A stretch of 33,271 nucleotides of DNA. It comes from Alphaproteobacteria bacterium. GTDB taxonomy: Bacteria; Pseudomonadota; Alphaproteobacteria; UBA7985; JAUIBT01. A model generated the notes under the pieces. The model was not told where the DNA came from. It made no database searches and saw only the letters and a program-made list of their open reading frames with translations. The stretch covers positions 1 to 33,271 of the forward strand of contig JAUIHE010000018.1 of assembly GCA_030432195.1 (NCBI GenBank), written 5' to 3'. The first letter of the stretch is position 1; every line of letters starts with the position of its first letter. A program made the translations under genes and the position numbers. Below are positions 6,098-31,053 of the stretch, piece after piece.

Positions 6098-6222
6098 CCT
6101 TGCCTCGTCTAACCTAGCTTAAAGTCTCAAAACAATTGCTGGGACTGTTCAAAGACTATCACAGCCCCCTGTGCAGGACTATGCGATAGATTAAGGCAAG
6201 ATTGGGCAAGTTTCCCGTTTAA

Positions 6223-8112
6223 TTAGAGGAACTTGAGGATCAGCTCGTTATCGTAGCGATAAAAATCGTCCTGGAAGCGCAATGTCCCGTCGTCATCGAC
6301 CCAAACGGTGATGTAGGACAAGAAGACCGGCACAGGATCGTCAACTTTGACAAAGCGCGTGTCGCCTTCGCTCATATAGCGGCGGATCTTCGACATCGGC
6401 CATTCGCCTTGCTCGCCCAAAATGAACTCAGCAAGGTCCGCGGGCTTGCCAACGCGCACACAGCCAGACGAATAGGCACGGGTCGCATGGCTAAACAGGC
6501 TTTTGGATGGCGTGTCGTGCAAATAGATCGACAGATCGTTGGTCAAGCTGAAACGCACGCCGCCCAGGGCACCGCGGTCACCCGGCGGCTGGCGCAAAGT
6601 AACGTGTTGCAACAGGCCGCGGCGGGCCGCTGTCACAGGGTCAATTTGCCGACCGTTGTAGTACACCTCAAGGCCTTTGTTGGTCGGGTAGTAGGGGTTG
6701 GCCAACATGTTGGGCAGATAGTCTTGGGTGAAGATGGTCTTCGGCACCGTCCAATCGGGACGGAACTTCAAGGTCACCACCTTGTCGGCGATTACCGGGG
6801 TTGGGCGCTTTGGTTTGCCGATGACGACGGGCATTGTCAGCTCTTCTTTGCCGTCGCGATAGGCGCGCAGCATATATTCGCCCATGTTAACACGGATATA
6901 GCGGCTTCCAGTGGGATCAAATTCCCAACGCAGGCGCTCCATATTGGCCTTGATCTGCAAGACCCGGTATTCGGCCGAGGTGTTCAGATGCTTGAAGGTA
7001 TTGGGGCCAACCACGGCATCGGGGCTCAGGTTGTGACGCACTTGGAAGTGCTTGACGGCATCGGCAAGCGTGTCATCAAAATAGTTGGGGTTGCTGGCCT
7101 GTGCTTTAGCCGTTTGCACGCGCGTTTGCTCATCGTGCGCCTGCAGACCTGCGTCGTCGCCGTTGGTCGCCAGCTGGTCTTGCAGGGCTTCGGCTTGCTT
7201 GCCCGCATCGCCGGCGCTCGGTGACAGACTGTGATTGATTTGCTCAGCGCTCAGCTCTGTATTATTGCCGACTTGATCCAAGGGGCTCGGCGCTTTCAAG
7301 TCGCCCATCAAGATGAGCTTGTCGCGCAGCGCGGCCACGTTGGGGTGCTCCATGCCTGGCTTCAAAACTTCAGAAGCGTCGATTTCCGGGAAATCGCCAT
7401 GAGAAACGATGTTCTGATACTGTTGCAGAGCTTTGCGCAGGTCGCGATAGTACTTGGATTTTGGCAGCCGATCGTCCAGCCATGCCAACAAGTTATCGGC
7501 GGCAAGGCCGTCGCTCGACAAATCAGCTAGATTGATGGTGTAGCGAAAATTGAAGCGCCCTTCTTCAAAGTCGCGGGTCAGGCTCATGTAAGCAGCGGTT
7601 AGAAGGTAGTCGGTCTCCGCAATGGCTTCATCGCTGTCCGGCAAACTGGCGGTCAGGGCGTTGACGTCATAGTTCGCCGGATTGAGACCTTCGCGTTTAC
7701 TGAGCGCCGCCGCGGTCATCAGGTCTTTTACCTTGGGCGACCAACGCCGTTCGGGCAGCCATACGGGCTTGTAGTTCCGCGCCCTGTAGAGCGCTTTGAT
7801 CTTGCTCTTTTCGACGTCATAGCGCTGGGCGTCGCTGGTACCGTTTGAACCAACGAAATCCCTTAGTGCGGCAACCAGAGTTTCTTCAGCCAATTGTGTG
7901 TCGATGACTGGAGCCGCCATGGCAGTGGAAACCGGGACAATGGCGCTGCTAGTCATGCCCAGGCCAAGCAGCAGGGCAAGGGAAAACAGCGCTCTTCGAG
8001 AGACAAGGCAGCTTGCCGCTACAAGGTTTGCAGCGGTTGATCGGCGGTTGAAAGAAAGGCGATCAAGAAGAAGGGGCATGAGAATGGCTCTTTGCGTGCG
8101 CAGGGCGACCAA
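6223..8112 (-). CDS. YcbB/LdtD-like L,D-transpeptidase with peptidoglycan-binding domain
   Basis: YkuD catalytic motif HDTPSKSLFSHATRAYSSGCVRVGKPADLAEFILG; PGB-like DDTLADAVKHFQVRHNLSPDAVVGPNTFKHLN; N-terminal signal/TM. Adjacent to DUF882 gene as in the E. coli ycbB-ycbK arrangement. Exact start uncertain. Confidence 0.93.
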   Translation of the reverse strand: MVALRTQRAILMPLLLDRLSFNRRSTAANLVAASCLVSRRALFSLALLLGLGMTSSAIVPVSTAMAAPVIDTQLAEETLVAALRDFVGSNGTSDAQRYDVEKSKIKALYRARNYKPVWLPERRWSPKVKDLMTAAALSKREGLNPANYDVNALTASLPDSDEAIAETDYLLTAAYMSLTRDFEEGRFNFRYTINLADLSSDGLAADNLLAWLDDRLPKSKYYRDLRKALQQYQNIVSHGDFPEIDASEVLKPGMEHPNVAALRDKLILMGDLKAPSPLDQVGNNTELSAEQINHSLSPSAGDAGKQAEALQDQLATNGDDAGLQAHDEQTRVQTAKAQASNPNYFDDTLADAVKHFQVRHNLSPDAVVGPNTFKHLNTSAEYRVLQIKANMERLRWEFDPTGSRYIRVNMGEYMLRAYRDGKEELTMPVVIGKPKRPTPVIADKVVTLKFRPDWTVPKTIFTQDYLPNMLANPYYPTNKGLEVYYNGRQIDPVTAARRGLLQHVTLRQPPGDRGALGGVRFSLTNDLSIYLHDTPSKSLFSHATRAYSSGCVRVGKPADLAEFILGEQGEWPMSKIRRYMSEGDTRFVKVDDPVPVFLSYITVWVDDDGTLRFQDDFYRYDNELILKFL

Positions 8113-8520
8113 AAGATTAGCGAAAGGTAACCAAGGTCGAGCGGCACCGGTTGTTGTCAGGTGGGCTGGAATTCAGCCTCAGTTTTTTGGCTCAATCGGT
8201 TTGACCCGATCTGTGTTGCGGCCATCGCGTCAGTTACTTGCTGTTTCTTGCCAGGTGGCCAAGTCGAGGGGCTTGAGGCCATCAAGCGAGCCTTCACAGC
8301 CGTCCAGGTCCGGCGAGCAGGTTGACACGATAGGCGCTCGATTGTTATCGCGCCTTGCTTATCTTTGCAATATGAGAACCGGGGGCTCGGGATCAAATCA
8401 ACGAGACCTTGGCCATGGCGTGCTAGCGCCGGGCTCGTGTAGGCTAAAGAACGCACAGGCAAAAGAGCGTTGGGTACGGACAGCGCCGCGATGGTGGCAA
8501 AACGACAGCAAGGCGAACGG

Positions 8521-9180
8521 ATGATTGACATGCAGCGCCCAGCGCGAAAAGCGGGGCAAGATTCGGGCTACGGTGGAGACATAGGGCGGGCAGTTTTACG
8601 CTTGTCGTGCAGGTTCTTTGCGGTGATTGGTCTTTTGGCCCTGGCTGCTGGCGCCACCCATGCCTTTGCCCCCAAGCCTATCGCCAAGCCACAGCGACTG
8701 GTGGCCGCCGAAATCACTGTGCCTGCGGCAGCCGCGCGCTCGCAACAGCGGAGTGTTGTATCAATGGCCCCACCGCCAAAGCCTTTGATAAAGCCGGATT
8801 ATATCGCCGTGCTTGAACAACGCTTGGATCGGTTGGTCTATCTGCCGCCGGTCTTGCGGGCGCAATGGCAGGCCTACAACAGCTATCGCGATGTTAAGGC
8901 CTTTGCGGTCAGCGTTTCCGGCTTGAATGCGCGCCCAGTTGGCGCGTTTTCGGTCGCTCACGCGCGTGTAGCCGCTGCCATAGACGGCGCCATCACGGCC
9001 TGTGAAGCCACCGCGCGCGAGCTCGGGCGCCCGGACGATTGTGAAGTCTTCGCGATCGGTGACTACGTGGTGTTCGGCGCCGATGCCAGCTATGACCGTC
9101 AAGTCATCGAGCTTATGGAGTCTCTCAAAGCTTCAGGGCAAGTTGGGCGCGACGCCAAGGGACGGATTCAAAAGCTTTAG
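8521..9180 (+). CDS. exported hypothetical protein
   Basis: ORF 8470..9180; start at 8521 preferred (upstream AAGGCGAACGG). TM/signal FFAVIGLLALAAGATHAFA; C-terminal CEATARELGRPDDCEVFAIGDYVVFGADASYDRQVIELM. Family not recognised. Confidence 0.7.
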   Translation: MIDMQRPARKAGQDSGYGGDIGRAVLRLSCRFFAVIGLLALAAGATHAFAPKPIAKPQRLVAAEITVPAAAARSQQRSVVSMAPPPKPLIKPDYIAVLEQRLDRLVYLPPVLRAQWQAYNSYRDVKAFAVSVSGLNARPVGAFSVAHARVAAAIDGAITACEATARELGRPDDCEVFAIGDYVVFGADASYDRQVIELMESLKASGQVGRDAKGRIQKL

Positions 9181-9256
9181 CGGCAAAGCGGTCACCGGCT
9201 CGATCCCTTCGATGTGTTACGGCAAAGTCCTTCGACCCGGCTGCCTGTTCACCAGG

Positions 9257-12200
9257 TTATTGGAACAGCCCGTCGAGCAAGTTATCCACAGCTTGGCCCG
9301 CTGATTCTTCCAGCGACTGCTGAGCGTCTCGTAGGCGCTGGGCCTGCTCCAGCGCGCGCGCCTCAGCTTCAGCGCGCAGGCGATCGGCTTGGGCGGCCAG
9401 CTCGGCGGCGCGTTGAGCGGCAGCATCTTCGGCCTGTCGCCGCAGCGCCTCGGCTTGGGCGGCTTGGTCCTGAAGCAGTTGGTTTGCTTGCAAGCGCCGT
9501 TCAGAGACCAAGGCCTCCAGATCAAAATCGCTCGGCAGGATGTCTTGAGCCAAGTCGCGCGGGATCAGATCCAGCAGCGCTTCGGGGTTTTCGCGTGCCA
9601 GGGTCAGGAAGCCCGTCAGATCCATTTGAATTCGAAGATCATTCCAAGGGCCATAGATCTGAAGGGGTAAGGTGAGCTTTGAGATGCCCGGCGTGAGCCG
9701 TTCGGCTTGCACGTATTCGGGTGTCAATCTTGGTTCAATGCGATAGTTGAGCGTGCGTTTGCCTAGATCCACCTGGCCTTTGCCCGTCAAGGCAACCTTG
9801 TCGGATGTCAGCTGAAACCCTTGCGTGCTTAGAACGCCTTGTTCAATCAGCGCGCGCGCGCCCAAGTCGCCGAATTGGGTCACCCGCGTGCGCCCCAGGG
9901 CAGGGTCAAGCTGGCGCGATTTTAGGGTCGCGATGGTGGCGGGCACATCGAAGCCCAGCAGCGAGCCATCGCGCAGATTAAGATCAGCCACGCCCTTCAG
10001 ATTGGACATCAGCCGCGCTTGGTTAATGCCGAATGTGAGGACATCAATTTCCAGATCACCGCGGCCTGTCAGTTCCTCGCGCCCGGCAAGGGCCTGGAAC
10101 AGGGGCTTGATATCAACCTGGGAGACCTTGGCTTTGACCGCCAAAGAGGGTTCGGCTTCGCGGGCGTTCAGCACAAAGGTGCCGCTGCCGCTGCCTTGAT
10201 AGGCGCGTAGGCTAGGGATGTCAGCTTGCAAGCGGCCATCGCGCAAGCTCGCGGTCATCTCGGCCTGCTCCAAATCAAAGCCATAGAGGCTAAGGCCTTG
10301 TGAATTCAGTGCAAAATCACCGTTTAAGGCTTGCAGACCAGACCAGTCAATCGGTGCCGTGTCCCAGTCGCTTCCACCTGCGGCGGCCCCACGATTGGCG
10401 CCTTGCGCGGCGGCCAGGGGCTGGTGGTCTTGGGCGCTTAGGTAGGGATCAAGGGCCAGCTTTGGTGCGGCAAGATTGGCTTGGATGTAGGGCTTTGCTT
10501 GGCCCAGATCCAACAAGGCGGCCAGGCGCAACGCCAGGCCATCAAGATTAAGGGTCGCTTCTTCAAACCGGGTCTGGGTTTGGCTGTGTTGCAGTTGGCC
10601 TTGCAGCGAAAACGGGCCGTAGACCTCGGGCTTGCCGGGCAGCTCAACACCGTATTGCTTGGCGAGGGCACGCAGGGATCGGCCTTGCGCGGCAAGTCGG
10701 CCATCGGCGCTTACGGCGTCAGCGCTGTAGCGTGCTTGCCCATTGAAGCTCGCGCTGACGAGGCCGTTGGAGAGCGCAAGCTGGGTGTTGTCAAGTTGGC
10801 TAACGCCGCCTTGGTGCTGCACGGCGCTTTCAAAGGTGAGGCGCGTGGCCTCATCGAAGCCGGTCGAAACGCCTGGCGCAAAAAGGTTTGCCACCTGGTC
10901 AAATGCGGGAATATCGGCGCGGGTCTGGATTGCGAGCCCGAGCTGCTGGTCCAGGCTCTGCCCTTGCGCGCCGTCAATCCAAACGTCCCCGCCCATGGTG
11001 AGCGAGCCCAAGGAGGTTTGCGCCTCGACTTGCGTTTGTCGGCTCTCTAGCCGCTGATCTTGGGCCTCCAAGCGGCCCGAAGCGCGCAAGGAGCCGCTGA
11101 GTTGAGCCAGACCAGGCGAGCCAGTGAGCAAACCGGCGGGCACCAAGGCCAGAAGGGCTTGCAGATCATTGGCTTGTGCGGCGTAACTGCCCGAGGCGTA
11201 GCGCTGATCGCCGACGCTCTGCAAATCACCGTTGAACAGCAGTTCACCTAGGTTGGTGCGCGCCTCGACCTTTGCGCCAAGAAGAGAGAAATCGCCGCCC
11301 GATACGGCGACCTTGCCTTGCGCTTTGGCCGACCCGCTGACTTGGGGCAGGCCCGGCTGCATTCCGCGCGCCCAGTCCATGACGGGCGTTAAGTCGGGCA
11401 CATCTGCGTTGAGTTGGCCTTGCGTCGCGATGAGGGCTGCCCGCTTTGACACTTGGCCGTCATACTGCAACCGCCCCCAGTTCAACGCAGCATCGAGCAC
11501 TGCGCTGCTGAGGTCGAAGTCTTGCCCAACAAGCAGCAGATCGCCGCTGGCGCTCAGGCTGCCGTCCAGGGGCGGGCGCGGCGCCGACGGCGTGTCGGGA
11601 ACAAGGCGCATTAGGCTGCCCGCGTCCTTGACCTGCAAAGAAAAGCGACCGGCGGCATTGGGTGCTGCATTTTGGTAGCCCAAACGGCCACCGAAGTTCG
11701 CAGCAACGGCAGGCAAGTCAGCGGAAAAACTGGCGTTGGAGAAAGCAAAAGCGCCGTCCACGAAGATGAGGTCGCCTTTTGCCGCCAGCGGGCCGCGCAA
11801 TTGGCGGGCCTGGTCGATCTCTAGGCCTGCCATCTCCAGCAAATCGGGCAGGCGATCACTGGCGACCTCGACTTGCCCTTCAAAGCCCAGGTTGGGGGCG
11901 AGCTGGAGCCGTCCGTTAACTTTGCTGGTCAAGGCTTTGCCCGCGTTCAGCTCGGCGCCCAGGCTCAGAAGGCCGCCATTCAAAAACGCGCTTATGGGCG
12001 ACAGTTCCAGGTCATACGCCATTTCCAGCGACTGCCAGCCCAGCGCGCCGGTCAGGGTGAGGCGTTGCTCGCTACCCGATAAACTGCCTTTGAGGTTGGG
12101 CAAGGTCAGGGTCTGGCGGTAACCGCTGCGCTGATCCAAATAGGTGACGCGCCCCTTGTTGATCCGAAAATCACGGATATCCAGGCGGGTTAGCTGTTGT

Positions 12201-12721
12201 TCTAGGCCTGCGCCCGACGGGGAGCTGGCGAGCGGGTCGGAGGAAGGAACCGCCGCCGAGCCATCTTCGGCAGGGGGAATAGTGGGGACCGATTGGCCCG
12301 ATTGCGTTTGATCGACTGGCGCTGGGGTGAAGCTCCAGTTCGCGGTGCCGTCGCGGCCGATCTCCAGCAAGATGTTTGGTTCGTTAAGAACGATGGCGCC
12401 GACATCGATCTTGCCTTGCAACAAAGGAAAAAAGCTTGCCTGAAGGTTGAGGGCATCGATCCGGGCCATGAGGGGCTGAGAGCCGCCAGCCATGTTCTCA
12501 ATTTTGACATCCTGGATCGAGACCGCCAGTTGAGGCACAACGCGCAATCGAAGCGGGCCGTCAATGCTGACTTGGCGACCCAGCGCTTGGCTGAGCTTGG
12601 TGTTAATCTCAGGCTTAAAGTGGTCAACGGGAATGCGCGGGACGACCACAAACACAGCGGTTGCGGCAACGCTCAGCAGCGCGATGATAATCGCTATCCA
12701 GATGCTTAGTAGACGTGTCAT
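9257..12721 (-). CDS. AsmA family protein
   Basis: 1154 aa; N-terminal TM, ALGRQVSIDGPLRLRVVPQLAVSIQDVKIENMAGG, C-terminal GRGDLEIDVLTFGINQARLMSNLKGVADLNLRDGSLLGFDVPATIATLKS typical of AsmA C-terminal region; Ala/Gln-rich coiled tail. Confidence 0.93.
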   Translation of the reverse strand: MTRLLSIWIAIIIALLSVAATAVFVVVPRIPVDHFKPEINTKLSQALGRQVSIDGPLRLRVVPQLAVSIQDVKIENMAGGSQPLMARIDALNLQASFFPLLQGKIDVGAIVLNEPNILLEIGRDGTANWSFTPAPVDQTQSGQSVPTIPPAEDGSAAVPSSDPLASSPSGAGLEQQLTRLDIRDFRINKGRVTYLDQRSGYRQTLTLPNLKGSLSGSEQRLTLTGALGWQSLEMAYDLELSPISAFLNGGLLSLGAELNAGKALTSKVNGRLQLAPNLGFEGQVEVASDRLPDLLEMAGLEIDQARQLRGPLAAKGDLIFVDGAFAFSNASFSADLPAVAANFGGRLGYQNAAPNAAGRFSLQVKDAGSLMRLVPDTPSAPRPPLDGSLSASGDLLLVGQDFDLSSAVLDAALNWGRLQYDGQVSKRAALIATQGQLNADVPDLTPVMDWARGMQPGLPQVSGSAKAQGKVAVSGGDFSLLGAKVEARTNLGELLFNGDLQSVGDQRYASGSYAAQANDLQALLALVPAGLLTGSPGLAQLSGSLRASGRLEAQDQRLESRQTQVEAQTSLGSLTMGGDVWIDGAQGQSLDQQLGLAIQTRADIPAFDQVANLFAPGVSTGFDEATRLTFESAVQHQGGVSQLDNTQLALSNGLVSASFNGQARYSADAVSADGRLAAQGRSLRALAKQYGVELPGKPEVYGPFSLQGQLQHSQTQTRFEEATLNLDGLALRLAALLDLGQAKPYIQANLAAPKLALDPYLSAQDHQPLAAAQGANRGAAAGGSDWDTAPIDWSGLQALNGDFALNSQGLSLYGFDLEQAEMTASLRDGRLQADIPSLRAYQGSGSGTFVLNAREAEPSLAVKAKVSQVDIKPLFQALAGREELTGRGDLEIDVLTFGINQARLMSNLKGVADLNLRDGSLLGFDVPATIATLKSRQLDPALGRTRVTQFGDLGARALIEQGVLSTQGFQLTSDKVALTGKGQVDLGKRTLNYRIEPRLTPEYVQAERLTPGISKLTLPLQIYGPWNDLRIQMDLTGFLTLARENPEALLDLIPRDLAQDILPSDFDLEALVSERRLQANQLLQDQAAQAEALRRQAEDAAAQRAAELAAQADRLRAEAEARALEQAQRLRDAQQSLEESAGQAVDNLLDGLFQ

Positions 12722-19356: not shown

Positions 19357-20421
19357 TTAGTAGGAGCGAGTCTGCAAGATCTCGACCTTGATTTCGTTCT
19401 GACCATTGGTGCGAACCGAGCCAACAACTCCCATGGCATCCAACATCAGGCGCAGATTACGAACCAGGCGGCCTTGGTCTGCAGAGGTCTTATAGTCGTA
19501 GGTTGCGCTAGAGAAGTTAGACTGAACGATGTCTACGTCGAAGGCACAAGACCAAGAAGACAAGAACTGCTCAACCGCGGTGATACGGTAGTTATCAAAG
19601 CCCTCGAAGGTCAGCGAGAAGTTGGTGGCCAGGTTGCGACACTCGGGGTTCGGGTAACGCGGAGCCAATTGGCCGCCAGTACCGTTCTGGTTGTTGCCAA
19701 TGATCGGCTGGCTAGGTTGAACCGGCTGGGTCGGCTGAGTAGGAACGATGACCTGCTGGCGCCCACCGAAGGCCAGGCCCAGAGGGGTCGCCAACTGGAG
19801 CGCCATTTGGTTTGCGGCGTCGCGAGCCAACACGTCGAAGTTATCCGACACGAAGCGCTTCACACACTCTTCCGATGGCTGGCCGTTGTTGCCGGTGCCG
19901 GCCGCACAGCCGGTGAAGGGGATGCCAGCGGTGTTCAAGGTCAGGCGATCGCCGCCCAAGAACTGGTTATCCAGCATGTTCAGCGCTTGATATTCCAGCG
20001 TGCCTTGCAGTTTGGCAATGCCAGTGTAGGGATCTTCAACCGCTTCAGCGTAGGCTGAATAGGTGATCACCACGTCCAGCTTGGGGTTGGTGAAGTTGCG
20101 AGCGAAGGAGATAACTTCTTGCTGGCTGCGACGGTGATTGTCGCGGTTATAGTTGGGGAACTGAATGCCCAGCGCGGCCTCGTTGTAAACGTCAAAGCCC
20201 TGGATGTTGTACTGAGCCATCAGGCGCTGATAATCAGGAGAGCGCACGGTGTTCTGGAAAACACGCAGGATCGAATTTTGAATGCGGTTGCCAGCTTTTA
20301 GCGAGGTCTGATCTCCGTCAACTTGCATGACCATGACCTTCACGGTCTGGGCAGAGGCAGCAGTAGCAGCACCAAAAAGAGTGAGGCTGGCCAAGCCAGC
20401 TGCGGCGAGAAGGCGTTTCAT
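19357..20421 (-). CDS. exported protein of unknown function
   Basis: Signal peptide MKRLLAAAGLASLTLFGAATAASAQ, mature TVKVMVMQVDGDQTSLKAGNRIQNSILRVFQ, Pro/Gln linker VPTQPTQPVQPSQP, separate C-terminal domain (FSLTFEGFDNYRITAVEQFLSSWSCAFDVDIVQ...). RBS AAAGGACAAAG upstream. Confidence 0.85.
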   Translation of the reverse strand: MKRLLAAAGLASLTLFGAATAASAQTVKVMVMQVDGDQTSLKAGNRIQNSILRVFQNTVRSPDYQRLMAQYNIQGFDVYNEAALGIQFPNYNRDNHRRSQQEVISFARNFTNPKLDVVITYSAYAEAVEDPYTGIAKLQGTLEYQALNMLDNQFLGGDRLTLNTAGIPFTGCAAGTGNNGQPSEECVKRFVSDNFDVLARDAANQMALQLATPLGLAFGGRQQVIVPTQPTQPVQPSQPIIGNNQNGTGGQLAPRYPNPECRNLATNFSLTFEGFDNYRITAVEQFLSSWSCAFDVDIVQSNFSSATYDYKTSADQGRLVRNLRLMLDAMGVVGSVRTNGQNEIKVEILQTRSY

Positions 20422-20710
20422 GACTTTGTCCTTTTTTGTCAGTGAAGGAGTTCGCTTGATGCAGGCTGAGTGGGAAGCACAGGCGAAAAAATGACTCTGT
20501 GCGAAGCGACGGACGTTTTTTTGCGAAAAAAGCGTGGCTCCCTTTAATAAATTCCACCCAAAGGCGCTGCTTGTTGGCCACCATGGGCGCCGAGCTCAGG
20601 CGGTGCGCTTGAGGGTCGCTTGAGGTGCGGGGCCATTTCGCCACCCGACCTTTCCCGTCGCCTCAACCCCAAGCTTGCGCGCGTCCTTCCCAGCGTCTAC
20701 TGGCCGCGCA

Positions 20711-20743
20711 CAAAAACCCCTCCAACACCAGGTGTTGGAGGGG
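20711..20743 (-). terminator. strong Rho-independent terminator downstream of the cytochrome c peroxidase-like gene
   Basis: Minus strand CCCCTCCAACACC-t-GGTGTTGGAGGGGTTTTTG; 13-bp perfect arms followed by T-run. Confidence 0.92.
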
Positions 20744-20781
20744 CCGTTGAGACGCAACGCGCCGGATCGTCAGGGCGGGCC

Positions 20782-23061
20782 TTAGGGGCGTCCTTGGACC
20801 GTCGGTGCCAAGCTGAGTTCGACCGGCAGACGCAGCGATTGCAGGAACGTAATCAAGGCGGCTTGATCCTGCTCGCTGAGACGGCGGAAGGCAGCAACCG
20901 AGGCATTGGCTTCTGACGGCGCCAGGTTGGCATTTTCGCGCGGGATACGGCAGGTATCGTCCGCGTGAGCCAAAATGGCATCCTTCAGGGTCAAAGCGCG
21001 CCCGTCGTGCATGTAAGGCGCTGTGTTGGCAACTCCCCAAAGCGGGCGGGTCAAGTAAACGTCCCGCTCAACCAGCAGACCTTCGCGGTCAACCTGCTGC
21101 CCGAAAATGTCCGCCAGGCAGGCGCCCATGCGGTGGCGCTTCAAGTCGCTGAACAAAGGAACATCGACCGCGCCGTCCGGGTAAAACGGCAGGCGGGGAT
21201 AGGACGCGGGCAAGGCGTCTGCCACAGGATCGACCATGTTCAGATCAAAGGCATAGGAGCCAATTTGCTCGCGCAGGGCCGTATCCAAGCTTTCTTGCGC
21301 TGCGCTTTCGCTTTGCGCGCCGTCTTTGCGTGCCTGATCCACCAACAGGTCAATGGGCAGCGGGCGGTTCTTGGGGCTTGCAACGCCCAGGCCAACACCG
21401 TCATCGACAACAGCAGGGCTGTCGGCCAAGCTTTCTTGCAGGGTGCCCAGTTCTTGGCGGAAATGCTCTGGGTTATGAATACCGACCCAGGGGCTGTTCA
21501 TGCGCAACGATGTTGTGTGACAAGCGGCGCACTGTGCGTCTTGCTCGAAAACCTGCTTGCCACGGGCCAGCAAACTGGCTTCGATCTGGTTAGACGCCGC
21601 CCGCTGAACAGGGGGGCGGTTCGACAATGCAAACAGGGTCAAAGCGGTGACCTCGCCTACGCTGATCTCATTGTGCACGCCGTCTTGGTCCGCATCGGGA
21701 TTGCCGGGGAAGGCCTCAACAGGTTGCATGCCGAAGTGGAAGTTAAGCGCGTCGCGTACAAAGTTGCGCATATTCGAGGCAATGCCTTTCCATTGGAACG
21801 GCCGCACCACGAAATCGAGGGAAACCCCTTCAATAGCCGAGCAATCTTCTTCGAAACCGCGCAGCTCACCACAAACGCCGTCTACGTCGTCGGGACCACC
21901 GGGGCGCTTGAGCGCCGCATAGATACCGAAATTGATGCCCTTGGAGATCAGATCGACTTCATACCAATTGCCCGGATCGCCATTCGCGGCCTGCAAGACG
22001 CGCTCGCGCAGATGCAAAAGGTCCACCGTCATCTCTTGCGCCAGCTTTTGCGTATAGCCCGCACCCATGACATGAGGAGGATTGCGCAGGTACATGAAGG
22101 TCGATGCGTGGTCAGGCGAATGGCCCCGTGAGCGCATTTCGTCGATCAGCCAGCCAGGCGGGTTGGCTTGCAGCAAAGGATTGATGAGAGCGTTGACAGA
22201 AATGCCGCCACCACCGGCGACACGATCAGGACGCGCGCTCAAAGCGTTGGTCTGGCTGTCCGTGAGTTGATCGACGCCGGTCAGGTTGTGGCACTCCAGA
22301 CAGTTTTGACTATCCAGGCCGTGAACGCGCAAGAAGGGCACGTTGGGGTAGAACTCGAAGGCTGAACCACGGGTATTGCGCAGTTGTTCGATTTTGCTCA
22401 TACGCGCGCCGCCGGGGCCCTCACCAAATCCGTCACGCTGGGTGAAGGGCTGGGTGAAGAGGTGGCGTCCGATTTCTTGGATTTCGCGAAAGCTGAGCGC
22501 GCCCGTTTCGATGTCTTGCTGGCTCACGCGCACCAGCGGGACCAAAGAGCGCGTGGCGTCGGCCGGCCGGGGGAATTCAGGTGGGCTGCCGTGCGAAGCG
22601 GCCTGCACAGAGTTGCTATTCTGGTTTTGGTTGGCGTTGCCACGGCGCTTGACGACAGAAGGGCGCACGCCGTTACCATCGCTCTGCCCGCCATCTTGGT
22701 TTTGTGCCTGATCTTGGTTCTGGCTGTCAGACGGCGGAGCAGGGGGAGCGGGCGGCGGAGGTGGAGCGGGGGGCTGACTGGTTTGCGGCTGTTGCGGCTG
22801 GGTCGGCGGGCTGGGCGGCTGTGGCGTGGGGAGCAGGCTGCCGCCAGAATCACAGCCAGGCGCATCTGGGTTGAAAATACAATTCAGCGTCTGGCTGGCG
22901 GCGGGGTTGACTAGCCCGGTCAGCGCCAAGCCGCTGAGGGCAAGCGTTCCGACGACCAAGCTTGCGCCGAGCAAATTGGACGTAAATTGTGTGCTGGCCT
23001 TCAGCACAAATTTCGGCCGGGCGAGACCAGATGATGGGGGCGGTGATTGGGGGCAAGGCAT
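20782..23061 (-). CDS. di-haem cytochrome c peroxidase/MauG/DHOR-like protein
   Basis: Two CXXCH haem motifs (CLECH at 22288..22302; CAACH at 21517..21531), GVANTAPYMHDGRALTLKDAILAHADD and LSEQDQAALITFLQSLRLP typical of this superfamily; N-terminal signal/TM and Pro/Gln-rich linker. Confidence 0.85.
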   Translation of the reverse strand: MPCPQSPPPSSGLARPKFVLKASTQFTSNLLGASLVVGTLALSGLALTGLVNPAASQTLNCIFNPDAPGCDSGGSLLPTPQPPSPPTQPQQPQTSQPPAPPPPPAPPAPPSDSQNQDQAQNQDGGQSDGNGVRPSVVKRRGNANQNQNSNSVQAASHGSPPEFPRPADATRSLVPLVRVSQQDIETGALSFREIQEIGRHLFTQPFTQRDGFGEGPGGARMSKIEQLRNTRGSAFEFYPNVPFLRVHGLDSQNCLECHNLTGVDQLTDSQTNALSARPDRVAGGGGISVNALINPLLQANPPGWLIDEMRSRGHSPDHASTFMYLRNPPHVMGAGYTQKLAQEMTVDLLHLRERVLQAANGDPGNWYEVDLISKGINFGIYAALKRPGGPDDVDGVCGELRGFEEDCSAIEGVSLDFVVRPFQWKGIASNMRNFVRDALNFHFGMQPVEAFPGNPDADQDGVHNEISVGEVTALTLFALSNRPPVQRAASNQIEASLLARGKQVFEQDAQCAACHTTSLRMNSPWVGIHNPEHFRQELGTLQESLADSPAVVDDGVGLGVASPKNRPLPIDLLVDQARKDGAQSESAAQESLDTALREQIGSYAFDLNMVDPVADALPASYPRLPFYPDGAVDVPLFSDLKRHRMGACLADIFGQQVDREGLLVERDVYLTRPLWGVANTAPYMHDGRALTLKDAILAHADDTCRIPRENANLAPSEANASVAAFRRLSEQDQAALITFLQSLRLPVELSLAPTVQGRP

Positions 23062-23297
23062 GGGCTTTGGCTCCGTTTTTGGGCGAAGGGCAGCGGCACC
23101 CAGGGGCCTGGTGGGCCCCCATGATCGCGCTTGAGTGCGATTCCATGGTCCAGGGGCGCGGTCGCTTGCCGATCCGCATTTGCAGTATTGGGCTCTGTTT
23201 CAGTGGATTGGGGAGGGCGAAAACTGTGCTTTTGCGGGCGGCACCCTTCAAAATTTTATGCCGGGTGCAGCCCGCACCTGAGGCGGGCAGGCGCAGG

Positions 23298-25034
23298 CTA
23301 GCGGACCATGGCCTCAATGAACATTTCGCCAAAGCCTACTTCGTTGCGCAGCACAGCCAGCAAGATTTCCGTCACGTTGCTAGGCTGGAATTTGTAGGGC
23401 TCTCCGCGGTCATCCAATTGTTGATCAAAGGCCTGTGCCCAAGCCTCCAACGCCTTCTTGCTCCAAGAATTGTGCGTCAGACACTGAACAAAGAACGCAT
23501 AGTCTCCAGTCATGCCGATTTGGCCAACGACAAAATTAAAGGCAGCCGCTTGCTCGGGATAGAAGATTTGCCCCGCAGCGCCGCCGCTGGCGGCATCACT
23601 GGCCTTCAAAGCCATTGGCGCTTGGCTGAGCAAGAAGGTCTCGTTGCTGTCGTCGTTAGCCAGGCACAAGGCGCTCTGCGTGGTCTCCGCGTCGTTCAGA
23701 AGGGTAAAGCGCAGCTTATCACCCCAGCGAAGGTCGATCTTGTCTTGGTCGCTTCTGACGGGCGAGGGGTGGCGTGCCGCCATGATTTGGCTGAGCGCGA
23801 GCGGCCCGGCTTGGTCGTCCTTGCTGTCCATGGGATCCAAGCCAAGCTCTAGCTCGCGCTTGTCGCTCTTTCCGCCTCGGTCGCTATCCGCGCTGAGAGG
23901 ATTGGTCTTGAACAGCGCGATTTCGTCGTTGTCGTTGATACCATCGCTGTCACTATCGGCGGCGTTGGGATCGGTGCCGAGTTGGCGTTCGTCCTTATCG
24001 CTCAAACCGTCCTTGTCACTGTCGCGCGGGATGGAGGCCAATTTACAGTGGAAGGCCTTCACGCGGGTAGACGGCGTGGAAATGAGTTCTTCAACCCCGT
24101 CCTTGGTCAAAGAGAATTTGGTGGCATAGATAGATTCGCCATCGCTGCCGATGACCTGCGTGCCGTCACTGGCGTCTACCTTGATTTGCAGATGCAAGCT
24201 CTCTTCGGGTGACAGGCTGATGCGCAGCTGGTGTTCGCGCTGCAAAAAGCTGGCGATCGCTTCGCGGAAGGCTGGCCCACACGATCCGCCGCCGCTTTGC
24301 AATTGATCGCCGTCATAGTTTTCGATCGGGGGGATGTAGACTAACTGGCCGTCCTGCTGGCGTACCAGCTTGGCAATCAGGCGCGCTTGGCTGGCTGCAT
24401 ACTCGCGTAACCAAGGCTCGTCCACGCGCACTTGATATTCGCCCGCGACTTCCAAGCACTGCACATTGCGGTCAAACAGCTTGATCTTGATGTTGGCGCG
24501 GTTGCGCACGGCGTTTTGTACTTCGACCTGTGCCATCAGCGAAAATGCGCCTTCGATCTGGGCAATGCGCTGGCGCGCTTCGGTGTCGGTCGCGCCCGAA
24601 AGGCCGACCAAGATGCTCACGTCGCCGCCTTCACCGATCGAGGCGAGCGGCAGGTGCGCTTTGGTGACAGCATCCTGAACAATGGTCTTGATGCGGTCCA
24701 GCTGTAGTTGGGACAGGTTGGCACGCGCGTTGCCTTCAAATAACGGGTTGAGGACCGCGACCTGATAGTCCGGCGTGATGCAGCCCGGGCTTTTCAGAAG
24801 GCGAATAAACCCAAAGGCAATGTCGGCAGCGATGCGCTCGGGCAGGTCGAGAGCTGGCCCCGCGCCTGGTCCTGAGTTGCGCACACCGGGCCCAGCCTGG
24901 CCGATGGGCGGCGGCGTTACTTGCGCCTGGGTTTCGCTTGTGGCCAGAAATCCGGTCGCCAGAACCAGTGTGCCAACGACAAAGCCCTTAAACCTTGCTG
25001 TGGTAGGTCGAAGCGAGAAAAGAAAGCGGAGCAT
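23298..25034 (-). CDS. exported protein with thrombospondin type-3-like repeats and DUF4384-like C-terminal region
   Basis: Signal peptide ...GTLVLATGFLATSETQAQ; DSDKDGLSDKDERQLGTDPNAADSDSDGINDNDEIALFKTNPLSADSDRGGKSDKRE; C-terminal WGDKLRFTLLNDAETTQSALCLANDDSNETFLL...FNFVVGQIGMTGDYAFFVQCL resembles DUF4384. Confidence 0.75.
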   Translation of the reverse strand: MLRFLFSLRPTTARFKGFVVGTLVLATGFLATSETQAQVTPPPIGQAGPGVRNSGPGAGPALDLPERIAADIAFGFIRLLKSPGCITPDYQVAVLNPLFEGNARANLSQLQLDRIKTIVQDAVTKAHLPLASIGEGGDVSILVGLSGATDTEARQRIAQIEGAFSLMAQVEVQNAVRNRANIKIKLFDRNVQCLEVAGEYQVRVDEPWLREYAASQARLIAKLVRQQDGQLVYIPPIENYDGDQLQSGGGSCGPAFREAIASFLQREHQLRISLSPEESLHLQIKVDASDGTQVIGSDGESIYATKFSLTKDGVEELISTPSTRVKAFHCKLASIPRDSDKDGLSDKDERQLGTDPNAADSDSDGINDNDEIALFKTNPLSADSDRGGKSDKRELELGLDPMDSKDDQAGPLALSQIMAARHPSPVRSDQDKIDLRWGDKLRFTLLNDAETTQSALCLANDDSNETFLLSQAPMALKASDAASGGAAGQIFYPEQAAAFNFVVGQIGMTGDYAFFVQCLTHNSWSKKALEAWAQAFDQQLDDRGEPYKFQPSNVTEILLAVLRNEVGFGEMFIEAMVR

Positions 25035-25252
25035 GGTCTGGTCTTTATTTTTGTTGGGGCAAGAAGCGCTAGCAAACAGGGGGCAGTGGGGCCGTCAGCA
25101 GTGAAACGGTCGCCGGGTGGGTAATCGGCGGTTCAAACAAGGGCAAGGTCCGGCGTCGCGCCCGGTTTGACACGACCGCCGGTGCTTTGCCCAGTGGAAC
25201 CGCCAGGCTGATTAGCGCTGAACCCTCGGTCTTTTTTGATCTGGCGACTTGC

Positions 25253-27871
25253 CTAGTCACAGCGGGCATTGGTGTCGATGATGGTTAGATATTTGCCGTA
25301 GGAACAACCTTCAGGGTCAGGTCGCCCCCACTTGGGTGTCAAGCAGCGCCCCTTGATGCAAGCGACCCGGTACCATGATCCTTCCTTGCCGGTGATCTCC
25401 ACCACGTCACCGCGATACAGCTCGCCAACTTGGCCCGCCCGTGTGGTACAGCCGGTACGCACGGCCAAAAAGCCGCGCCCGCTGCTGTGGTTGTATTGCG
25501 AGATGGAGGCAATGTTGTTGTTGACCCGTGCGATGGTGCATCGCCGCGAGGTGTCAACAGGCTGGCAGATCAAGAAGCCCGCGCTTTGTTCAACGGCGGT
25601 AACGGCGCTAGCCAATGTCTCTGCCGACGTGACGGGCAGGTGCTGACCGGTCGCCTTTGAGAAAGTCGCCAGCGCGGCGCGGGTGGCCGTGTTGAACTGG
25701 CCGTCCAAGCTGCCCTGATAGCAGTTGGTGTTGAGCAAGGCCAGTTGCAGGCGCCGATAAGCCTGTTCGCGGCTGACGCAGGCGCCGTTGATATCAATGC
25801 CTTGGCAGCTAAAGCGCTCGATCAGTCGTGTGACCTCTTGGCGTAGGCCCGGCACGGATGCAAAGCGTGCCCCGCAACGTCGCAACAGCGCGACCTTGTT
25901 GTCGCTGGATTGCACGGCATTGGCCAAGCACTCCTCGCTGGCGCGTTGTTCTTCGCGCGCGCAGGCTTCTTCGCTCAATTGTTCGGCGCGGCGCAGTTCA
26001 TTTGTGATGTCAAAGTTCAGCTCCCCGCGCTTGGACTGTGCCAACCAGGTGTCGCCAAAGGCGCGCCATTGCTGGCAGCTGCCATCAAAGCGTAGCGCGG
26101 AAAGTTCTGCATCAAAACGCTCGCGCAGGACTTGCTGTTCAACCTCACAAACGGTGTGCCGGGTGGCTTGGTATTCGCTCAAGTCGTCGGGGGCCTTGGG
26201 GTGATTTTGCCAGACGCTCAAAAAGTCGTCCCAGTCTTGGCAGCTTGACGGATTGGGCATCAGGTCCAGAGCAGCCAAGAAGGCCGGTGAAAGCGCTGGC
26301 GGCTGAGGCGGATCTTCGTTGGTTTGGGTAGCCTGGATGTTGTCGTTGCTGGCCGAATCACCTGAGGCCGTTTGCGTGCTATCGCCACCTTCCGGTGCCA
26401 CAGGGCAATTTTGTTCGGCCAGGCACTGGCAATCAGGGCTGCCCGTCTGGCCGCTATCGACGCAGGCTTGCATGCGCTCTTTTTGAGGGCAACACTCACA
26501 GCGGTCGAGCAAGAAACTCATGCGCGTGAGCGCCCCAGACTGGGCAAAGCTTTGTTGCAAGTCGGCTTCGACCTTACAGGCGCTGGCACGCGCGCTGAGC
26601 TGATTGATTTGTGCTTGAAGGGCGGCGCGCTGCCCTTCTTCGTTGCAGAATTCACAGGTCAAGCTGAAGCTGCGCAGCAAGTCCAAGGTCTCTGCGATCG
26701 CTTGCGGATCACTGGAGGTCAAGGCGCTGCCCGCCGCGGCCATTAGCTCATCGTTTTTGAAGGCTTCAATGAAGGCCCGCTCTTGGTTCAAACCGTAGCT
26801 GGGGTAGACCCCGCCTTCATAACGCAGCACCACCTCGTTATCGTCCATACCGGTAAAACTTGGGCGCTGTTGAAAGGCGCCGGTTTGCCCACTTGCCGCC
26901 AGACGTGCCAACCGCCGTGATATGGTCGCGGTGACCGCCGAGCGCATTTCCCCGGCGGTGACCTGAAAGTCGCCGTTGGTATCGGCCTTGCCGTCGTGCA
27001 GCGCCGACATCAGCGCGTCAGTAAAAATGCCCCGCTGAAACTCGGTGTCCCAGACGGCGAAGTCGGTGTCCGGCGAGGTCGCTGCCCAAAGGCGGATATC
27101 GGGCAAGTCAACGACGGCCGCGCGCCCAAGGGGCGGGGCTGATACGCCGCGTACTAGCCCGCTAGATTGGCTGCCGTCGGCGCTGGGCGACAAACCTGAA
27201 AAGCAGGACTCCAACACCAGTGTAATACGCCCTTTGGTAAGCCGGTTGCTCTGCAAGTTCTTCAGCGCTGCTTGCAGATCACTCAAGCTAAGCGCCTGAT
27301 CTGACAAGAATTTTTGATCCGGGTTGGCGTCAGTCGGCAGCAAATAGTTCTGCGTCAAATTGGGGTTGCTGGGCGAATCGTGGGTGCCGTGGCCCACGTA
27401 GTAGATATAAAGGTCGGTGTCAGGTGCCAGCACGAAGTTGGCCAGACTGCCAAGCCGCCGATCATCGCCGAACAGCTCGCGCATGCGATTTGTGCCCATA
27501 TTATCAAACCGGTGGACCTGCGCGCCCAGCACCTCACTGGCGAACAGGGCAAAGGCTTCGGCGTCTTGCTTGGCGTAGGCAATGTCGTCGGTCTGGGCAT
27601 AGCTTTGGTTGGCGATAATGATCGCCACACGCTGACCAAAGAAGGGCTCACCGATTGGCGGGCTGCTTGCTTGCGTTCCATCTTGGGGCCAGGCCGAAAC
27701 GGACGTCAGAGCAAGAAACAGGGTCGCAATGAAGGCAAGGCCCAGGCTTCCGCCCTCGAACAGGCGGTGGCGAATTTTCGAGCCGCACCTGCCGAAAAAT
27801 GTGCGCAGCCAGATGGTTAACCGGGCGGCGTGGTCGCTGAAGTGGTGGGGGATCAGCAAGTTGTGTGGCAT
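25253..27871 (-). CDS. caspase family (C14) protein with peptidoglycan-binding-like and SH3-like C-terminal regions
   Basis: RVAIIIANQSYAQTDDIAYAKQDAEAFALF; catalytic His in LYIYYVGHGTHD (27389..27391), catalytic Cys in LVLESCFSG (27203..27205); C-term AYRRLQLALLNTNCYQGSLDGQFNTATRAALATFSKATG and GDVVEITGKEGSWYRVACIKGRCLTPKWG. Start at 27871 (RBS AAAGAGA) preferred over 27985. Confidence 0.9.
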   Translation of the reverse strand: MPHNLLIPHHFSDHAARLTIWLRTFFGRCGSKIRHRLFEGGSLGLAFIATLFLALTSVSAWPQDGTQASSPPIGEPFFGQRVAIIIANQSYAQTDDIAYAKQDAEAFALFASEVLGAQVHRFDNMGTNRMRELFGDDRRLGSLANFVLAPDTDLYIYYVGHGTHDSPSNPNLTQNYLLPTDANPDQKFLSDQALSLSDLQAALKNLQSNRLTKGRITLVLESCFSGLSPSADGSQSSGLVRGVSAPPLGRAAVVDLPDIRLWAATSPDTDFAVWDTEFQRGIFTDALMSALHDGKADTNGDFQVTAGEMRSAVTATISRRLARLAASGQTGAFQQRPSFTGMDDNEVVLRYEGGVYPSYGLNQERAFIEAFKNDELMAAAGSALTSSDPQAIAETLDLLRSFSLTCEFCNEEGQRAALQAQINQLSARASACKVEADLQQSFAQSGALTRMSFLLDRCECCPQKERMQACVDSGQTGSPDCQCLAEQNCPVAPEGGDSTQTASGDSASNDNIQATQTNEDPPQPPALSPAFLAALDLMPNPSSCQDWDDFLSVWQNHPKAPDDLSEYQATRHTVCEVEQQVLRERFDAELSALRFDGSCQQWRAFGDTWLAQSKRGELNFDITNELRRAEQLSEEACAREEQRASEECLANAVQSSDNKVALLRRCGARFASVPGLRQEVTRLIERFSCQGIDINGACVSREQAYRRLQLALLNTNCYQGSLDGQFNTATRAALATFSKATGQHLPVTSAETLASAVTAVEQSAGFLICQPVDTSRRCTIARVNNNIASISQYNHSSGRGFLAVRTGCTTRAGQVGELYRGDVVEITGKEGSWYRVACIKGRCLTPKWGRPDPEGCSYGKYLTIIDTNARCD

Positions 27872-28061
27872 GAAGACGTCTCTTTGAAACTTTTTTGAGC
27901 GTTGGTTTGTTGTTGTTATCGTTTGGCGATGCAATGCAGGTCCTACCGTCGAATTCCGTACCGAGCAGGCAAAGGGGCCTGACAAACTAGGCCGCCAAGC
28001 TGCCTCCTCTAAGCGGTGGAAACATCAGGTGAAAAATGCTTCGTCGATGCCCTCCGACTGG

Positions 28062-28083
28062 CCGCTCACGCTTTAGTGAGCGG
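28062..28083. repeat. perfect inverted repeat CCGCTCAC-gcttta-GTGAGCGG
   Basis: Direct reading in the intergenic region between the divergent caspase genes. Confidence 0.8.
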
Positions 28084-28344
28084 TAATCGACAGCTCAAAG
28101 GACAAAAGTGGCAATTTCCACCCAAATTATTCCACGCTCAGGATATAGTCTTACAAGTCATGCCCGTGTGCAAGGCGCCACAAGGTCGTTTCGAAAAAAG
28201 AGCGATACATGAATATAGCACAAAGCTAGCAAGCCTGCGTTTCGAACAAAGAGTGCCAACAGGGCGAAGCTAGCGCTGCCTTTGAATGCAGACTTGATCT
28301 GCAGAGCGGCCCGGCACACGACACACAGAGATGAGGAAAGCCAT

Positions 28345-31053
28345 ATGTTAATGCGACGCGAAAGGGGTTCGGCACGAGCGACGGGGAGCAGGGCCTCGGC
28401 TTTTGCACCATCTTTAAAGCTGCTGATTTGTGCACTAACGGCCAGTTTGAGCCTTGCTATCAGCGCGGGCTCCGCTTGGGCCTATAGCCAAACGGTAGCC
28501 CTGGTCATTTCCAACTCTGACTATCAGCAGACCGATGACGTTGCTTATGCCGAGCGCGACGCGCAAGCCTTTGCGGATTTTGCAACCGATGTGTTGAACG
28601 CGCGCGTTGTCCATCTAAAGGACTTGGGCACCAACGCCATGAACGAGCTGTTTGGTGATGCCCAACGCTTGGGCAGCATTCGCAATTACATCAATGCGCC
28701 TGATACGGATCTGTATATTTATTACGCTGGCCACGGCACTCACGACGCGCCAGCCTCGGGGCCAGCTAAGAACTATCTCTTGCCGGTGGACGCCAATCCG
28801 GATCAGTCCTTTTTGGCGCGCCAGGCCTATGCAATTGACGATCTGCGGGCCAGCTTGAAGCGCCTGCAACAAGAGGCCATGAGCGATGGCCGCATAACTC
28901 TAGTGCTGGAGTCATGCTTTTCGGGCCTCAACCCCAGCGCTGACGGGCAGGCAAAAGGCCTGCTGCCCGGCGTCTCGGCCCCACCGCTGGGCAAAGCGGT
29001 TGATTTGGAGCTACAGGACATTCGTTTGTGGGCGGCCACATCGCCCGATACGGATTTTGCCGTTTGGGATGATCGCTTTGAACGCGGCGTCTTCACGGAC
29101 GCTCTGCTGTCAGCCTTGCATGGTGGCGCTGCCGATAAAGACAAGGATTTCAAGGTTACCGCCAATGAGCTGGAGGCCTACGTCACGCGGCGCGTGAACC
29201 AGCAAGTTGCCAGCCTGACCCAAGCCGGTCTGGGTTTTCGCCAGCGCCCCACCTTCAGCGGAATGGCGGATAGTGACGTCATCGTCAGCTATCCGGCAGA
29301 GATTTACCCAACCTATGCTACCGATGAACAGCGCCGATACGAGGAGGACTTTGTTGCCTTTGAGCTGTTGGACAAGACCATGCCGCACTTGGCAAGCAGC
29401 GACCCCAACCAACTCGACAGCTTGGTGGGCGAAGTCCGAGATTTCACGGCAACTTGCCAGTTCTGCCAGGGCAACCAAAAGCTTTTCCAGCGTATGAACC
29501 AGCTGCGTCAGCGCTTGCAGACCTGCCGCGCGGAGCAGCGATTGCTAGCCCGAATTGTTGAGCAAAAACGCATCAAGAGCCTTCAGCGATTAGCGGGTCG
29601 TTTGGAGTGCGGCTATGGCGCCGCCGCCATTCAGGCTTGCGTTTCAACGGGCGATTTCACCTCAAGTGCTTGCCAGTGCTTGAGCGATGAACAGTGCTTG
29701 GCGCAGTCGGAAAATCTGACCCCGCGCTGTGACGCCGACCTAGCCAAGATCAGCGATCAGCCCGTGGCCGTGCAAGGCGCGCTCTATGCCAGCTTCACGC
29801 GCGATCATCCCGAATGTGCCATCATTGAAAGCAAGGCAAAGACCGCCCTGGCTGCCTTCTGCCAGACCCAAGCGAGCCTGGCAGGCCTTGGCAGCGACAG
29901 TGCAACGATCGCCGCTCTCACCGGATTTGTCGCTAGCTTTGGCTATTGCGAACGGGCCGTCACGCAAGCAGAGCAGCAAATCGCGTCCCTGGAGACCGAG
30001 CTGCAAGAAGACGTCTGCGAAAGCGATTTCCAGGCTGTTGCACTCAGCAATGATCCGGACCTGCTGGCTGGTTTTGCCTCGACCCATCCATCTTGCCCCG
30101 TGCAGATCGCCGAGGCGCAAATCATCCTCAGTGATTTGAATGAGCGTTTGGGCCAGTGCCAACAGGCTTATTTGGAAGCCGTCGTCAGTGAAGATGTCGA
30201 GGTGCTGGACCGCTTCGTTCAGAACTATGCCATGTGTGCAAATGAAGTCGCGGTTATTGAGCAACGCATCGAAGGCCTGGAGCACCAATATGAACGGGTC
30301 GAAGAGGCCAATGCCTGCATGGCCATTGCAGAACAGCGCCTGCCGCAAAATCAAGAAGAAGGCTTTGCCGTGCTGGAAGAATGTTCGGTTGTCTTCGCCG
30401 ATATTCCCGGCATAACCGAGCGCGCCGATCAACTGCGCGAATCATTCGTGCCGGGTTGTGACCAGATCGACCTGGGCAACGATTGTGTGACGTCGCATCA
30501 AGCCTTTGTCATTGTTCAACAGCACCTCAAAGCAGCGGGCTGTTATGGTGGCGCGATCGACGGCGCCTTCGGGCCCATGTCTCAAAAAGCGCTGGGCACC
30601 TACAACAAAGTAACAGGCGCGAACCTGAGCGTTTCTAGTGAGGCTGCTTTGGTGCAGACAATTGCTTGGTTGGGCGGCAGCTCTGGCGTGGTTTGTCAGC
30701 GCGAAGCCCATTTGGACTATACCAAGCGCCGCGACATCGACCTGTCGCGCCATGCCAACGATATGTATGAACACGGCCTGCGCTTGAGTGTCGCCGAGTG
30801 CGCGCAGCAGTGTAACGCGCTATCGAATTGTATCGGTTTTGCTTACGTGACCAAAAAGAGCACCAAGTATGCGCGCTGTTGGCCGAAGTCCGATTTCGGC
30901 AAGCGCTTCAAGATTTCGGTCGTCGATTTCTACATCAAGCCTGGTGTGAAGGATACCAGTGTCTGGCCAAAGAGCAGTTCGCCAAAGACCAAAAGCGGGA
31001 CCTTCAGCTTTGGCTCCGGTAAAGGCAGTTTCAGTTTCTCGACCAAGCACTAG
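28345..31053 (+). CDS. caspase family (C14) protein with peptidoglycan-binding-like and PAN/Apple-like C-terminal regions
   Basis: QTVALVISNSDYQQTDDVAYAERDAQAFADF; catalytic His LYIYYAGHGTHD (28732..28734), Cys LVLESCFSG (28915..28917); C-term AFVIVQQHLKAAGCYGGAIDGAFGPMSQKALGTYNKVTG and LSVAECAQQCNALSNCIGFAYVTKKSTKYARCWPKS. Start ATG 28345 with upstream GAGGAAAG. Confidence 0.9.
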   Translation: MLMRRERGSARATGSRASAFAPSLKLLICALTASLSLAISAGSAWAYSQTVALVISNSDYQQTDDVAYAERDAQAFADFATDVLNARVVHLKDLGTNAMNELFGDAQRLGSIRNYINAPDTDLYIYYAGHGTHDAPASGPAKNYLLPVDANPDQSFLARQAYAIDDLRASLKRLQQEAMSDGRITLVLESCFSGLNPSADGQAKGLLPGVSAPPLGKAVDLELQDIRLWAATSPDTDFAVWDDRFERGVFTDALLSALHGGAADKDKDFKVTANELEAYVTRRVNQQVASLTQAGLGFRQRPTFSGMADSDVIVSYPAEIYPTYATDEQRRYEEDFVAFELLDKTMPHLASSDPNQLDSLVGEVRDFTATCQFCQGNQKLFQRMNQLRQRLQTCRAEQRLLARIVEQKRIKSLQRLAGRLECGYGAAAIQACVSTGDFTSSACQCLSDEQCLAQSENLTPRCDADLAKISDQPVAVQGALYASFTRDHPECAIIESKAKTALAAFCQTQASLAGLGSDSATIAALTGFVASFGYCERAVTQAEQQIASLETELQEDVCESDFQAVALSNDPDLLAGFASTHPSCPVQIAEAQIILSDLNERLGQCQQAYLEAVVSEDVEVLDRFVQNYAMCANEVAVIEQRIEGLEHQYERVEEANACMAIAEQRLPQNQEEGFAVLEECSVVFADIPGITERADQLRESFVPGCDQIDLGNDCVTSHQAFVIVQQHLKAAGCYGGAIDGAFGPMSQKALGTYNKVTGANLSVSSEAALVQTIAWLGGSSGVVCQREAHLDYTKRRDIDLSRHANDMYEHGLRLSVAECAQQCNALSNCIGFAYVTKKSTKYARCWPKSDFGKRFKISVVDFYIKPGVKDTSVWPKSSSPKTKSGTFSFGSGKGSFSFSTKH

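Follow-up and report, generated by a model that had tools for sequence, protein, structure and literature searches.

The two apparently exported caspases encoded in the window, the 33,271-nucleotide stretch of DNA analysed here, lie at a locus that we tentatively interpret as half of a conserved Pseudomonadota envelope island, present here in a derived copy that is split in two, and as an envelope-surveillance or remodelling protease system. On sequence evidence, two neighbouring genes, P0001 and P0006, belong to this island, in which caspases recur, and both caspases of the window have intact catalytic residues and a conserved cysteine pattern. Most discussion of bacterial caspases treats them as proteases that serve death or defence in the cytoplasm. 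An exported caspase that belongs to a conserved cluster of envelope genes would suggest another role, and the P1 and d500 families described below (the names P1, d500, c180 and RVFe were coined in this analysis for working use and are not established family names) provide concrete partners with which a caspase role outside the cytoplasm becomes testable.

The window is contig C201 of a draft genome (G000; 3.14 Mb, 86% complete), which was compared with the draft genomes of two congeners (G001 and G002); the three represent three species of one genus, and all other genomes are referred to as non-genus. Five consecutive genes, four on the minus strand and one divergent on the plus strand, had been singled out at 19357–31053 in a sequence-only reading. 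All five were recovered as intact open reading frames at these coordinates and strands, and they occur in identical order in both congeners, but the limits of the locus had to be extended since the adjacent gene P0006 (17711–19177) belongs to the set. The N-terminal signal or TM segment claimed for all five products could also be read from their sequences, in which a hydrophobic stretch precedes a signal-cleavage-like motif. Comparison of the three species gave dN/dS values of 0.01–0.19 across all genes, indicating purifying selection, with synonymous sites mostly saturated. Since the minus-strand genes lie ∼180–360 bp apart, they do not evidently form one tight operon. The synteny is not specific either, since the gene directly downstream of P0005 (31262–32605), coding for an M24-family protein resembling the DMSP lyase DddP (489 bits against a cut-off of 600), is likewise syntenic in the congeners. 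An Rfam search gave no match.

Judged against curated Pfam cut-offs, P0004 (25253–27871, minus strand) and P0005 (28345–31053, plus strand) are C14 caspases (PF00656; 41.5 and 57.5 bits against 21.4), and signals for export were read from both sequences. Their likely ATG starts are at 27871 and 28345, which corrects the earlier assignment. The two intact caspase catalytic motifs reported previously are indeed present, as YYxGHG and LESCFSG are found and the His-Cys dyad is kept in both proteins; the Glu that precedes the catalytic Ser-Cys may hint at a preference for a basic residue at the P1 cleavage position. In P0004, the catalytic domain (26852–27631) is followed by a Cys-rich middle region, a weak PG_binding_1-like segment and a C-terminal SH3_3 domain that scores above the Pfam cut-off. 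P0005 has a catalytic domain at 28495–29268, a Cys-rich middle region, a PG_binding_1-like segment and a PAN_4-like C-terminus, the last two falling just under their cut-offs (19.6 versus 23 bits and 26.7 versus 27 bits, respectively). A PDB sequence search with P0005 returned nothing useful.

In the alignment of the three orthologues, each caspase has exactly 27 cysteines that are conserved; one of them is catalytic and the other 26 are all located downstream of the catalytic domain. These 26 residues would leave room for 13 disulfides per caspase. Since they occur together with signal-like N-termini, the conserved cysteines support a location of the caspases in an oxidising, extracytoplasmic space, where disulfides would form. 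A third paralogue, which keeps the GHG and ESCFSG motifs, is found on its own on contig C97, where its neighbour is an ammonium-transporter-like gene; contig C38 codes for a more distant caspase. In a phylogenetic tree P0004, P0005 and the C97 paralogue form one genus-specific clade, indicating that they are lineage-specific duplicates. The alignment of the three species also revealed a conserved block between the divergent caspase genes (28109–28174, no strand assigned), a candidate for a shared promoter or regulatory segment, in which a simple promoter scan found no sigma-70-like match.

P0001 (19357–20421, minus strand) codes for a 354-aa protein that is exported, as read from its signal, and that is under the strongest purifying selection of the set (dN/dS 0.012–0.05). 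It has no Pfam match above cut-off, and a PDB sequence search gave nothing useful. For the island families we used home-made iterated profiles. A first profile, for which P0001 and its orthologues were combined with one order-level homologue, picked up relatives in other families. An improved profile (A4) detected this P1 family in 20 of 385 class genomes and, beyond the class, in four further genomes of the phylum; none was found in phages. P1-family proteins have two invariant cysteines, and a GEDxDxxSVPR-type motif is common to most of the other members. The AlphaFold model of P0001 is of moderate quality (pLDDT 69, pTM 0.52). Using this model, Foldseek returned the structures of FlgT, CsgG, CT253, GNA1162, PelC and TolB (E 5e-5 to ∼1e-2) with probabilities of up to 1.00, at TM-scores of 0.2–0.5 (whole-query 0.2–0.3). 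The fold is predicted to be CsgG/FlgT/PelC-like and of an envelope type, which does not imply a function. The modelled protein would share an alpha-beta fold with CsgG, FlgT, PelC, GNA1162 and TolB and is likewise exported, but it has no sequence-family match to them and has an extra C-terminal alpha-beta domain and the conserved cysteine pair. No curli, flagellar or Pel genes were seen beside P0001.

The gene adjoining P0001, P0006 (17711–19177, minus strand), codes for a protein of ∼488 aa. It matched a d500 profile from which this genus had been left out (hmmsearch 1.5e-18, colinear; 0 of 200 shuffled controls reported), and hhalign aligned it with d500 almost end to end at a probability of 98.8%. 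By these profile comparisons, P0006 is a remote, near-full-length d500 homologue. No signal peptide is evident in its sequence, so at least one part of the set is probably cytoplasmic.

Outside the genus, a C14 caspase gene was located less than 10 kb from the P1 gene in four of the first seven genomes, for which the probability by chance is ∼6e-6 as derived from caspase counts per genome, assuming uniform gene placement. In an extended set of 30 non-genus P1 loci, some of them on short contigs and partly related, with several from one family, a caspase was found within 10 kb at eight (in G010, G289, G169, G358, G387, G513 and G520 and on a plasmid of Methylobacterium aquaticum), a DUF4384 protein at 10, an OmpA-like protein at 12 and a d500 protein of ∼500 aa at 17. 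The suspected linkage of the 354-aa gene to caspases elsewhere thus holds, and since a caspase is absent from most P1/d500 loci, it may be an optional partner. Six genomes have a single-copy DUF4384 gene, which is next to the P1 gene in five of them; in the sixth, ∼16 kb separate the two genes. The island also repeatedly includes a lytic transglycosylase, a one-helix protein, c180, RVFe and several small exported proteins. The cluster looks unannotated because neither Pfam nor NCBIfam has a matching model for most of the island proteins tested, and the island is not described in the open-licence literature searched. We conclude from these sequence comparisons that the P1/d500 cluster probably constitutes a conserved but seemingly undescribed proteobacterial cell-envelope gene island, sometimes accompanied by a caspase.

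On the M. aquaticum plasmid pMaq22A_2p, genes for a caspase, two hypothetical proteins, d500, c180, RVFe, a serine protease, OmpA and P1 form a contiguous cluster (L129:4654-14876) annotated mostly as hypothetical proteins; integrase and toxin-antitoxin genes are found nearby. A single run of genes in an order-level relative (L016:1723-10315) codes for two caspases, for one P1 homologue and another, weak P1-like protein, and for several unknown exported proteins. An island in a genome of another class (L127:43-13638) contains three P1-family genes, a transglycosylase gene and genes for many uncharacterised small exported proteins, and no caspase was seen in it.

The recurrence of the island bears on a different explanation, according to which the caspases are secreted digestive or matrix-remodelling proteases equipped with wall- or carbohydrate-binding modules, and their neighbours are loosely clustered exported genes with no joint function. 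The SH3_3, PAN-like and PG-binding-like modules are in keeping with such proteases, as are the wide intergenic gaps and the third paralogue on its own on another contig. However, the adjacency of P0001 and P0006 repeats a pairing that recurs in the island in other families, and the proximity of P1 genes to caspases exceeds chance; we regard this explanation as unlikely.

The genes for c180, RVFe and OmpA are absent from the window and are found together at a second island locus of the genus (on C222 in G000, C36 in G001 and C42 in G002; L133:95-5572, L134:8638-14729 and L135:8002-14061). At this locus c180 and RVFe, which are the usual neighbours of d500, are accompanied by two further exported proteins and by one OmpA-like and one glycosidase-like protein; c180 was seen only in G001 and G002 because the G000 contig starts at RVFe. 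Several of the exported proteins of the second locus have an N[AST]LI[DGN][DN]-type motif near one end. The simplest history would be that the island was split into two loci, with caspase duplication and the arrival of new neighbours at the window locus.

Two of these neighbours had been given a central role in the sequence-only reading. P0002 (20782–23061, minus strand) codes for a DHOR-type di-haem protein with a signal for export, as read from its sequence, and a Pro-rich N-terminal linker. Of the CCP/DHOR-like label that it had received, the DHOR part stands (39.5 versus 22 bits in Pfam, with Cytochrom_C also above cut-off) and the peroxidase part does not, as the score with the di-haem cytochrome c peroxidase model NF040606 was 38.1 bits against a cut-off of 150. 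Like DHOR/MauG-type di-haem proteins, P0002 has two CxxCH haem motifs, which are kept in all three species, but it differs from them in its long Pro-rich N-terminal region and inserts and stays under the cut-offs of the di-haem peroxidase, MauG and RoxB models. A PDB sequence search gave nothing useful. Near its closest non-genus homologues (G003, G011 and G080), inspection by eye showed sugar-binding or transport-type proteins, ROK-type regulators and FG-GAP-like proteins and no caspase. These three neighbourhoods led us to reject the idea that DHOR proteins belong to a general caspase module, and the linkage of the di-haem gene to caspases does not extend to these genomes.

P0003 (23298–25034, minus strand) codes for a genus-restricted TSP3-repeat protein, exported as read from its signal, with dN/dS of up to 0.19. 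Its TSP3 assignment was upheld (TSP3_bac, 42.8 versus 25 bits), whereas the DUF4384 part of the same label found no Pfam match, and there was no PF14326 hit in the source genome. By eye, P0003 had also seemed a possible divergent DUF4384 protein, but hhalign comparisons with six DUF4384 proteins, made with a shallow P0003 alignment, were negative. A domain that appeared by eye to be shared with proteins of G010 found no support, and the AlphaFold model (pLDDT 34) was unusable.

The earlier proposal of an envelope protease module is sustained as regards caspase export and the envelope link of the 354-aa protein, but not as regards its gating by redox (haem) and Ca2+. In a redox/Ca2+-gated stress protease the di-haem protein would sense or remove peroxide and the TSP3 protein would bind Ca2+, both controlling the caspases. 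That the five genes have remained together in the three species, whose synonymous sites are mostly saturated, with haem motifs and TSP3 repeats intact, is consistent with such gating; however, the DddP-like flank shows the same synteny, the DHOR homologues of other genomes have no caspase nearby, and a search of 385 class genomes for relatives of the TSP3 protein gave nothing outside the genus but one TSP3-repeat-only hit. Since the di-haem and TSP3 genes look like later additions of this genus, gating is conjecture, and we consider it very improbable.

Among known caspase systems, the portion of the 2012 metacaspase and orthocaspase survey considered here (Asplund-Samuelsson 2012, PMC3501461) describes C14 caspases as abundant in Alphaproteobacteria, some with N-terminal helices, and counts OmpA in 14 operons and more than one metacaspase in 20. 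The window shares with these operons its C14 caspases and the presence of more than one, and the island shares OmpA. That portion of the survey defines no system combining P1, d500, c180 and RVFe proteins and makes no mention of duplicated caspases that are Cys-rich and have DHOR and TSP3 proteins as neighbours. Caspases are also components of several bacterial conflict systems (PMC7159879), raising the possibility that those of the window are death effectors in programmed cell death or anti-phage defence, with the envelope proteins sensing infection or damage. The patchy distribution would fit this role, as would the occurrence of one copy of the island, which includes a second protease, on a mobilizable plasmid. 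As in Caspase-EACC1 and related conflict systems, a caspase-superfamily peptidase is next to accessory proteins, but the window caspases score far under the EACC1-caspase model (38.4 and 44.1 versus 140 bits), no STAND, MoxR or vWA partner, NTPase sensor or toxin lies alongside, and the caspases look extracytoplasmic in design. Comparison with known anti-phage systems in PADLOC gave no convincing match, only 17-bit caspase matches. We likewise consider death or defence very improbable.

Returning to the envelope island, we propose, somewhat more guardedly than the general interpretation given at the outset, that P1, d500, c180, RVFe and OmpA make up an undescribed envelope apparatus with an exported caspase as an optional effector arm, and that the caspase arm of one such copy, now split, lies in the window, with duplicated Cys-rich caspases bearing wall-binding modules. 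P0001 and P0006 would then be ancestral island members at the window locus, the two caspases lineage-specific duplicates, and the DHOR and TSP3 genes would have joined later in this genus. The caspases would be exported and would fold with many disulfides, and their C-terminal SH3, PAN-like and PG-binding-like modules would tether them to the peptidoglycan or outer membrane. The CsgG/FlgT-like P0001 and the OmpA-like protein of the second locus may form an envelope scaffold or ring, whose damage or assembly state would bring the caspases together for proximity activation, and the activated caspases would cleave envelope proteins after basic residues. P0006 may act from the cytoplasm. Elsewhere in the window (3830–12721), other envelope genes code for an M15_2 peptidase, an L,D-transpeptidase and an AsmA-family protein.
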